Positions 17,999-20,136 of a DNA stretch of 64,000 nt are shown piece by piece (the first letter of the stretch is position 1; each line of letters begins with the position of its first letter). This DNA comes from Acetobacterium sp. KB-1 (GTDB taxonomy: Bacteria > Bacillota > Clostridia > Eubacteriales > Eubacteriaceae). The notes beneath the pieces are model-generated. The model had not been told where the DNA came from. It searched no databases and saw only the letters and a list, made by a program, of their open reading frames with translations. The translations under genes were made by a program, and so were the position numbers. Location of the stretch: positions 1,649,736 through 1,713,735 of the forward strand of contig NZ_CP030040.1 of the NCBI RefSeq assembly GCF_003260995.1. The letters run 5' to 3'.

Positions 17999-18349
17999 AT
18001 GGAAACTGAAAAGAAGAATCGTTCCATACAAGAATACGTTCCTGGTAAACAGGTAACCCTGGCACATATTATTGCCAAGCCTAAAACAGATATCTATATT
18101 AAACTGGGTCTGGACGATGAAGCCGCCGATGCCATCGGTATCTTAACCATTACCCCCAGCGAAGCCGCCATTATCGCCGCTGACGCCGCAACGAAAGCCG
18201 CCCCAGTCGAAATCGGTTTTCTGGACCGTTTCAGTGGTTCACTTGTAATCACCGGTCGGGTTAGTGATGTCAAAGCTGCCGTTTCTGAAATCCTCAATAC
18301 TCTTAACCATATTTTAGGATTCGACATTCCTAAAATCACCTACTCCTGA
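17999..18349 (+). CDS. eutS: Microcompartment shell protein, EutS/PduU type
   Basis: A 116-residue BMC-domain protein. The N-terminal [19 protein letters not shown] is the hallmark of circularly permuted EutS/PduU shell hexamers, where it forms a beta-barrel plug over the pore. The BMC core follows: [34 protein letters not shown] helix and a final strand [12 protein letters not shown]. Start ATG has an AAGGTGA box. It is first of three plus-strand genes. No other shell genes are in the window, so it would join shells made elsewhere, or form an unusual minimal assembly. Confidence 0.92.
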
Positions 18350-18352
18350 TAG

Positions 18353-18820
18353 ATGGCCAATAATCGAAAACGGGTGGCCTTAATCGGAAAAATCGGCAGC
18401 GGCAAAACCACCTTGATGCAACGGCTAAATGAAGAAGAACTTAAATATTCCAAGACCCAAATGGTCAGTTACTATGACGATTTCATTGATACCCCTGGGG
18501 AGTTTATCGAACTCCCATTTTTTTCACGTCAGGCCATAAATATTACCATGGACGCCGGACTGGTGATCCTGGTTTGTTCCTGTATGGATTCCCAGAATGC
18601 CTTTCCACCCAATTTTATCCATACCTATAACATTCCCTCGATTGGCGTGATCACAAAAACAGATCTCCCCGAATGCAATATTAAACGGAGCCGCAATCTT
18701 CTTATTTATGCCGGTATCAATCCTAAACACATCTATGTGGTCAGTGCCTATAGTGGCGAAGGAATCCCGGAATTAGAAGCTACCATCCATCATTATATGG
18801 AACCCCACCGCAATAAGTAA
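18353..18820 (+). CDS. eutP: EutP/PduV-family GTPase
   Basis: A 155-residue Ras-like P-loop protein. Seen: Walker A G-K-I-G-S-G-K-T (12-19), switch II D-T-P-G-E-F (46-51), and the guanine motif T-K-T-D (101-104), followed by V-S-A-Y-S-G-E-G-I. EutP/PduV proteins accompany ethanolamine and propanediol microcompartments; PduV has been tied to compartment positioning and EutP reported to have acetate kinase activity. The ATG is three bases after the eutS stop, so the two are co-transcribed. Confidence 0.9.
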   Translation: MANNRKRVALIGKIGSGKTTLMQRLNEEELKYSKTQMVSYYDDFIDTPGEFIELPFFSRQAINITMDAGLVILVCSCMDSQNAFPPNFIHTYNIPSIGVITKTDLPECNIKRSRNLLIYAGINPKHIYVVSAYSGEGIPELEATIHHYMEPHRNK

Positions 18821-18832
18821 GGAAGTGAAAAA

Positions 18833-20089
18833 ATGACCTATGACAGCTATGGCAATTTAACAGTGGCAGGCGTTGCCAACTACCTTAAAGAAAAAAACAT
18901 CTTTCCAACCGATGCCAACCTTACCGTGGTCGATTTACACGCCGTAAAAGAAAGCATTGAAGGATTTGTTAACTTAATCTATCATGTCTACGACCAGTCG
19001 GGAAAATCAGTGATCATGAAACAAATGCTCTCCATGCCCCGGTTTCGGATTGAGGACGAAAAAAATAATACCGTGGAAGAAGCTGATGGCGATGGCTGGA
19101 CCCTGGATCTGGGTCGGATGCGCTCGGAAATAGCCACCCTTATTTTTTGGAACTCGGTCTATCCCGGCATCAGTCCTGAAATTTATCTCTTTGACGAACC
19201 CAACCGGATCATTGTTATGGAGGATTTAATGGATTTGAGTTTGCTCCGTTTTGAGCTCTGCCGGATGGTTAAACACGGACATTTTACTGCTAAGATTGGC
19301 GCATTTTTTGCCCGCAATCTTTTTTTCTCCTCCAATTTACATCTCACCAACTATAAAAAATCTGAAGTTGAACGGTTTTTTATAAATCCGGAATACACAG
19401 CCCTGGCCCCCTTTCTTTTTCGGGAAAACATCGGTGTTTCCTGGGAACGGGAGATGATTCCCGGCACGGATGAAAAAAGAGCCTTACTGGTGGATAATCC
19501 TCAAATTCAGGCCGAATTCAAACGTTTGGAAAACAAATTCCTAAATGATAAGGAATGTCTGATTCATACCGACCTTCACAGTTCCAACATCATGATCAGC
19601 TTTGACGACGTCCGCATCATCGATGGAGAATTTGCCGGTTTTGGTCCGCTGGCCCAGGATTTTGGCCGACTCACTGCCAGCTTAACCCTGAACTATGTTT
19701 CCTGGTTTGGTGATGAGTCCCGGACAACCGCTGAAAAAAACGATTTCCAGGCCTACCTGTTGACCACCATCACTGATCTGTATACCACCTTTCAAAATGA
19801 ATTCCGCCAGCTGGTGGAAGCCCATCGGGAGGAAAGCTACAGCTTAAAAAATCTGGATGTAGATGCTTATCTCATTGATCAGCTGCAAAATGCCTTGTCA
19901 TACACGGGGGTCAATGTCCTATCCCGACTGGCTAACCGCGGCATCTGCTATGACCTGCTCAGGCTTCCTGAAGCAAACCGTTTAGTCCCCTCACTTCTGG
20001 GCCTGGACATTTCCAGAGAGCTGATGCAAAACCAAAAAAAGTATACCCACATAAAAGAATATACCCTGTTACTAAAAAACCTGGCTTAA
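18833..20089 (+). CDS. Methylthioribose-kinase-like (MtnK-type) sugar kinase
   Basis: A 418-residue kinase of the choline-kinase/APH fold. Features: Lys63 in I-M-K-Q, T-L-D-L-G-R-M-R-S-E-I-A near 91-101, the brace I-V-M-E-D-L-M-D (127-134), catalytic loop I-H-T-D-L-H-S-S-N-I-M (Asp247), and metal site I-I-D-G-E-F-A-G-F-G-P (Asp264), which resembles the D-P-E-F-A-F-Y-G-P of MtnK. MtnK phosphorylates 5-methylthioribose at C1; relatives act on 5-deoxyribose. It follows eutP by 12 bases with a GGAAGTG site, and a terminator follows, making a tight eutS-eutP-kinase operon. Substrate is inferred from similarity only. Confidence 0.72.
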   Translation: MTYDSYGNLTVAGVANYLKEKNIFPTDANLTVVDLHAVKESIEGFVNLIYHVYDQSGKSVIMKQMLSMPRFRIEDEKNNTVEEADGDGWTLDLGRMRSEIATLIFWNSVYPGISPEIYLFDEPNRIIVMEDLMDLSLLRFELCRMVKHGHFTAKIGAFFARNLFFSSNLHLTNYKKSEVERFFINPEYTALAPFLFRENIGVSWEREMIPGTDEKRALLVDNPQIQAEFKRLENKFLNDKECLIHTDLHSSNIMISFDDVRIIDGEFAGFGPLAQDFGRLTASLTLNYVSWFGDESRTTAEKNDFQAYLLTTITDLYTTFQNEFRQLVEAHREESYSLKNLDVDAYLIDQLQNALSYTGVNVLSRLANRGICYDLLRLPEANRLVPSLLGLDISRELMQNQKKYTHIKEYTLLLKNLA

Positions 20090-20096
20090 CAACACG

Positions 20097-20136
20097 AAAT
20101 ACCGCTGATTTTATATATGAAATCAGCGGTATTTTG
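20097..20136 (+). terminator. Terminator of the eutS-eutP-kinase operon
   Basis: 15-bp perfect stem AAATACCGCTGATTT / AAATCAGCGGTATTT (20097-20111 and 20120-20134) followed by TT, eight bases after the stop codon. Confidence 0.88.

Follow-up and report, generated by a model that had tools for sequence, protein, structure and literature searches.

The closest described counterpart of the locus treated here is bacterial microcompartment (BMC) cluster 2 of Acetobacterium woodii (Awo_c26570-26590), in which pduU and pduV2 are followed by a gene that the authors, in the passages on this cluster, call a 'methylthioribose kinase, unrelated to BMC function' (PMC7593272). More generally, the part of the survey by Axen et al. 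(2014, PMC4207490) that defines satellite-like BMC loci names an insufficient contiguous shell set together with one or more non-satellite BMC loci in the rest of the genome, and PF10662 (PduV-EutP) is placed near such loci at 57% in one of its passages and at a quarter in another. Here, we analyzed a 64,000-nucleotide stretch of Acetobacterium sp. KB-1 (NZ_CP030040.1, positions 1,649,736 to 1,713,735; the window), which carries three tightly packed genes, eutS, eutP and an MtnK-type kinase gene (the trio). The original prediction, made from the letters of the window alone, knew of no described system with this content, but the locus has been published for A. woodii: going by the passages of PMC7593272 on cluster 2, the three genes, their order and the genus are identical, and there too the pdu cluster is without pduU and pduV. 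What is new relative to those passages is the conservation of the kinase across genera and its changed signature. We found no further paper on the trio among the matches listed in the open-licence literature, and in the passage of PMC11255663 that carries it, the locus tag Awo_c26570 appears in a different context. The trio is real, conserved and partly in print already. We propose, with a rough probability of 0.55, that it is a satellite-like BMC operon in which EutS and EutP would serve the Pdu shell and an MtnK-derived kinase would have been recruited to a small-molecule substrate linked to the organelle. Gene content, gene order, the absence of EutS and EutP from the examined pdu stretches, the kinase signature and purifying selection are direct observations. 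The features of the locus are:

17811..17894, plus strand: upstream block, a putative promoter and possible operator, from an alignment of 13 Acetobacterium-type loci
17999..18349, plus strand: eutS, EutS/PduU-type BMC shell protein, 116 amino acids
18353..18820, plus strand: eutP, EutP/PduV family GTPase-like protein, 155 amino acids
18833..20089, plus strand: MtnK-lineage kinase, 418 amino acids, with changed substrate residues F45, T246, N361 and S364
20092..20139, plus strand: strong intrinsic terminator of the trio, a 20-pair stem, from a scan

The three plus-strand open reading frames (ORFs) and the single terminator of the original prediction were confirmed, the predicted end at 20136 falling inside the terminator. 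Gaps of 3 nucleotides (nt; eutS-eutP) and 12 nt (eutP-kinase) separate the genes, prmA lies divergently upstream of eutS, and an extended -10 element, TGCTATAAT, occupies 17881-17889 inside the upstream block; on these signals, eutS-eutP-kinase is read as one predicted operon, bounded by the conserved promoter block and the terminator. The source genome (G000 in our numbering) is a single contig of 3.99 Mb, and its nearest named kin belong to Acetobacterium, the kinase being 89% identical to that of A. dehalogenans DSM 11527 and 87% to that of A. wieringae.

Searching 40 genomes of the same family, many of them fragmented assemblies, we recovered 30 kinase loci, 28 of which carry EutP and EutS immediately upstream (the exceptions are L055 in genome G033 and L056 in G032), as well as a 29th trio whose kinase is truncated at a contig end (L018, G008). 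A EutS profile finds the trio-type gene (at least 198 bits) in 34 genomes and, split over two contigs, in G039, which makes 35 of 40; prmA stands divergently beside eutS-eutP in 34 of these 35 (by BLAST or by eye), the contig of G005 ending before it. The kinase lies next to the pair in 29 genomes, spanning seven genera, of the 33 in which its position can be judged (contigs end too early in G006 and G038), which bears out the predicted conservation of gene order in relatives, and the layout in G017 is the one published for A. woodii. A EutP match in G030 was reported with one internal TAG stop; the ORF itself reads through, at 164 amino acids. For the kinase, the ratio of nonsynonymous to synonymous substitution rates (dN/dS) lies at 0.05-0.08 in the four closest pairs out of six and reaches 0.19 in a Eubacterium pair, and the remaining pair gave no value; for EutS it is 0.004-0.046 in five of six pairs, the sixth again not computable (3 of 24 comparisons in all were without usable dS). 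Because gene order is conserved across genera and the kinase dN/dS is low, the trio lies far beyond chance. These counts also bear on the view of the A. woodii authors, as worded in the passages of PMC7593272 on this cluster, under which eutS-eutP would be a Pdu satellite and the kinase a bystander with an unrelated metabolism. The eutP-kinase gap, measured from aligned starts, varies from 12 nt to ~195 nt, and the kinase is absent or moved in 4 of the 33 genomes, as a bystander might be; yet it follows eutP directly in the other 29, the gap in the window is the shortest value of 12 nt, and a second, diverged kinase follows the first in two genera (g3 and g4). We regard a bystander kinase as a serious possibility, albeit one that we would bet against.

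The assignment of the first two proteins is straightforward. EutS carries the BMC domain PF00936 (55.7 bits against a cut-off of 24.5), scores slightly below the cut-off of the EutS subfamily model (115.4 against 123) and has as its nearest solved structures 4axi (EutS) and 3cgi (PduU), as well as 3i96, over residues 4/6-114, and so combines a BMC domain with full-length similarity to the permuted, barrel-bearing EutS/PduU type. EutP reaches 140.9 bits for PF10662 (cut-off 21), stays below the cut-off of TIGR02528 (122.6 against 138.35) and has the intact motifs of the EutP/PduV family by eye (P-loop GKIGSGKT, DTPGE and TKTD); by sequence, it has no close solved structure. The 'minimal microcompartment' that the original prediction made of these genes did not hold up. 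PF00936 has 19 matches genome-wide, and two larger BMC loci possess full shell sets, with hexamer, trimer and pentamer genes (by eye), so that the eutS-eutP pair is a satellite and not a minimal microcompartment. One of them, the pdu locus at ~1593-1609 kb, about 60 kb from the trio, is without eutS and eutP (pduU and pduV); the other, the eut locus at ~812.6-829.6 kb, has its own eutS and eutP. With a single BMC gene here and pdu and eut loci with EutN elsewhere, the trio fits the published definition of a satellite-like locus. It resembles such loci in its incomplete shell set, the fuller BMC locus elsewhere and the nearby PF10662, but differs from them in that its third gene is regularly an MtnK-lineage kinase; the word 'methylthioribose' occurs 0 times in the main text of PMC4207490.

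A similar separation is seen across the family. A tblastn search with the EutS and EutP of the window against 16 fetched BMC stretches, nine of which hold both PduC and PduN, gave a match only in the genome's own eut locus. Among 49 EutN loci, 41 are without EutS within 20 kb on the contig and eight have it at 3.3-3.6 kb (in G000, inside the eut locus), a comparison that omits a 26-residue EutN fragment (G008:C372) and that counts EutS on another contig as not within 20 kb, often just a matter of another contig. Because the assemblies are fragmented, the distance to EutN is known only on a shared contig, for 21 of the 65 EutS genes that lie away from EutN, where it ranges from 41 kb to 2.1 Mb. 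Judging from these arrangements, PduU/PduV seem to have become separated from pdu in this family and to persist as a pair at satellite sites. The outcome named in advance as a refutation, that the trio is a displaced part of a standard pdu operon, therefore comes near the truth as far as the EutS/EutP pair is concerned. BMC domains occur in 37 of the 40 genomes and EutN/PduN in 36, all of which have EutS, and EutS without EutN is confined to G038 (70% complete). Both this co-occurrence and the complete BMC sequence that EutS retains in the alignment argue against EutS and EutP acting outside the Pdu organelle, for instance by forming a free-standing switch together with the kinase instead of contributing to the shell. 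Such a role would agree with a promoter block unique to the trio locus, with a EutS whose conservation exceeds that of prmA, the housekeeping gene next to it, in five of six pairs and equals it in the sixth, and with the low expression and lack of detection in purified A. woodii BMCs that passages of PMC7593272 report; we consider it very improbable.

As predicted, the kinase belongs to the MtnK lineage and not to the choline or ethanolamine kinases. The TIGR01767 methylthioribose (MTR) kinase model covers residues 6-411 at 215.9 bits, below its curated cut-off of 275, the two solved-structure sequences at E <= 0.01 are both MTR kinases, and in a tree the trio kinases form one clade (100/98) that is sister to tandem copies (L098 was omitted from the kinase table and tree, being the same gene as TAND_L070). 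An aminopropanol kinase of a microcompartment (RMM, 6ef6), encoded in a complete BMC locus alongside its partner enzymes, is 13% identical to the trio kinase. A precedent for a change of substrate is PsiK, a 4-hydroxytryptamine kinase that, in the passages of PMC11808438 on its structure, has the MtnK fold, has lost the twin arginine and has taken up a new substrate; it differs from the trio kinase in being fungal and in its known substrate, and the two are ~15% identical. According to the passages of PMC2194712 on the active site, MTR kinases are marked by a GXGNXN loop (G-loop), HGD, DXE(F) and a twin arginine, the first arginine of which binds O2/O3 of MTR and has K or E three residues before it. 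All 16 trio kinases compared read xxG[FY][VM]N, HTD, D[GT]EF and SR with N before, whereas all 12 homologues from the class outside this family read GDGN[LI]N, HGD, D[PC]EF and RR, and at least nine of these 12 adjoin an mtnA-type isomerase (by eye, excluding the neighbours of L096 and L097). Unlike MtnK and DrdK, the trio kinase thus has HTD for HGD, SR for RR and N at the K/E site, is without GXGNXN and has neither mtnA nor an aldolase directly adjacent; what it shares with MtnK is the fold and the DXE(F) Mg motif. At 18 sites, trio and canonical kinases are each fixed for a different residue; nine of these sites fall in or beside the catalytic, DXE and RR segments. A search at 1e-30 of 341 genomes of the class gave 19 with a match, 7 in the family and 12 outside it, and none of the latter had a trio-type kinase, all 12 showing canonical MtnK/DrdK motifs.

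On this sequence evidence, the kinase is a family-specific clade descended from the MtnK lineage. Its substrate probably differs from MTR, since the MTR-binding signature is changed, and because the catalytic Lys, Asp and DXE are retained, a predicted activity on another substrate is the natural reading. This suggests that the 'methylthioribose kinase' annotation in print is wrong for the whole clade. The second kinases in tandem behind the first in genera g3 and g4 (L016:9266-10501; L070:7905-9125) have HND for HGD and TR or IR for RR. A paralogue family in the same genomes (L064:6524-7798; ~3037 kb in G000) is intermediate, with HGD kept, the G-loop changed and SR in six of seven (DMEY and SR in the G000 copy), and is probably another clade with a changed substrate. 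We observed a second, separate link of the MtnK kinase fold with a shell gene in G036 (C34:4830-7356, L107), where the genes for an MtnK-like kinase, an AraC-type regulator and a BMC-H shell protein share a strand and overlap.

The changed signature of the trio kinase also bears on the enzymatic scheme first put forward for the locus, in which the kinase makes methylthioribose-1-phosphate or 5-deoxyribose-1-phosphate, a FucA-like aldolase releases an aldehyde and the microcompartment holds it. Acetaldehyde is a Pdu and Eut substrate, the kinase is of MtnK ancestry, and the genome has both a DrdA-like aldolase and MtnA, all of which would suit the scheme. Against it stand the MTR-contact residues, changed in 16 of 16. 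The proposed partner, at 9268-9936 on the minus strand, passes the PRK06833 L-fuculose-phosphate aldolase model (344.4 against 264) and is 61% identical over 100 residues to the aldolase that L091 has next to a canonical kinase and its isomerase, a likeness that makes a role in a dihydroxyacetone phosphate (DHAP) shunt plausible. The DrdK, DrdI and DrdA type genes are, however, not clustered as they would be for 5-deoxyribose: the aldolase is ~8 kb from the trio and on the opposite strand, and the isomerase is in mtnP-mtnA at 2112 kb, both unlinked to the trio. PF01008 (MtnA type) occurs in 37 of the 40 family genomes, and MtnP adjoins MtnA in all 30 family loci examined, an arrangement with which nucleoside salvage needs no kinase; a passage of PMC6079011 describes this phosphorylase route as one alternative to the kinase. 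Nothing was found that links the trio kinase to the MtnP-MtnA route, and with this aldolase and mtnP-mtnA, the genome may have a DHAP shunt that requires no kinase. Neither the substrate nor the partner first proposed is borne out, and we consider the aldehyde scheme quite improbable.

How a satellite operon would work is suggested by the Pdu system, in which a two-hybrid assay shows binding between PduU and PduV, and PduV has been modelled on the outward PduU barrel (passages of PMC4315436). EutS, of the PduU type, would form a barrel-capped hexamer and be a minor component of the Pdu shell; EutP, of the PduV type, would be a GTPase docked from the cytosol on the EutS barrel, outside the shell. 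The two would supply the Pdu metabolosome, whose own operon lies ~60 kb off without either gene, while the kinase would act in the cytosol and phosphorylate a small hydroxyl compound other than MTR, in a reaction connected with what the organelle consumes or produces. By eye, the kinase has no obvious encapsulation extension or targeting tail and is probably not inside the organelle. This last point, like the effect of contig breaks on the EutN count, weighs against a satellite operon with a recruited kinase, and so do several others: no trio-type kinase copy was found in G034, G035 and G039, which have the pair, and the kinase of G033 is elsewhere; the promoter block of the trio was not found at the pdu locus; and, in the passages of PMC7593272 on cluster 2, its transcripts in A. 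woodii are at least 20-30x lower than those of pdu, and mass spectrometry (MS) detected no cluster 2 product in BMCs from cells grown on 1,2-propanediol or 2,3-butanediol. The expression and MS data would fit a satellite for another substrate, and equally a bystander kinase. A bolder version of the satellite operon is tentative and, taken as a whole, unlikely: the kinase would found a new clade of metabolosome-linked small-molecule kinases from MtnK and would work with EutP on the EutS barrel as an external control or feeding module of the Pdu organelle, passed down vertically at a single housekeeping site in most of the family. A changed substrate of the kinase would by itself add, after PsiK, a further example of the MtnK fold put to a new use. 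What EutP/PduV and barrel-capped EutS/PduU do is still a matter of debate, and a compact operon that most of the family has kept and that links both to a kinase offers a small genetic handle in acetogens used for gas fermentation.

The upstream block is specific to the trio. Its core pattern has a single match in the whole genome, and among seven genomes it occurs once each in G000, G003, G014 and G017 and is absent from G012, G023 and G027; the reversed control gave one match, in G012. A matrix of the block run over ten stretches of the source genome (the window and L059-L067) scored 69.9 at the site in the window and 13.0 at the next best, which is not a credible copy, and an operator common to the trio and pdu or eut was rejected. 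We also rejected an upstream RNA element (ANTAR hairpin or riboswitch): the five Rfam matches up to E = 1 all lie on the terminator, far below gathering scores.

Outside the trio, the genome contains further pieces of BMC loci. A second eutS-eutP pair at ~1905.5 kb (L062:5428-6354) matches A. woodii cluster 3, and a cluster-3-type gene is present in 29 of the 40 family genomes (by score and exclusion). A lone EutL-like gene with tandem BMC domains at ~671 kb (L061:5091-5735), directly behind the acetyl-CoA carboxylase genes, corresponds to cluster 4. At ~3520.5 kb, a lone eutP (L063:6550-7116), 60% identical to the trio EutP, stands beside chelatase-like genes, with a lone shell-domain gene ~11 kb beyond it, at 3531 kb; a further EutP match, at 656 kb, was rejected as it reads by eye as the GTPase Era. 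In the eut locus, eutA is represented by two adjacent ORFs of 294 and 195 amino acids (L060:9527-11004; ~820.5-822 kb in G000), which could reflect a disrupted gene or an error in the sequence. In genus g4, the locus L111 (G027:C18), another of the 16 BMC stretches searched, has EutB and EutN homologues but neither EutS nor EutP in the 19 kb retrieved, and may be another compartment drawing on satellite pairs. Lastly, an intergenic repeat is present three times in the window (13307-13332, 17780-17805 and 23539-23564) with at most three mismatches, where none is expected by chance; the copy at 17780-17805 directly precedes the trio promoter, and sequence resembling this repeat is present in some intergenic regions of related loci.
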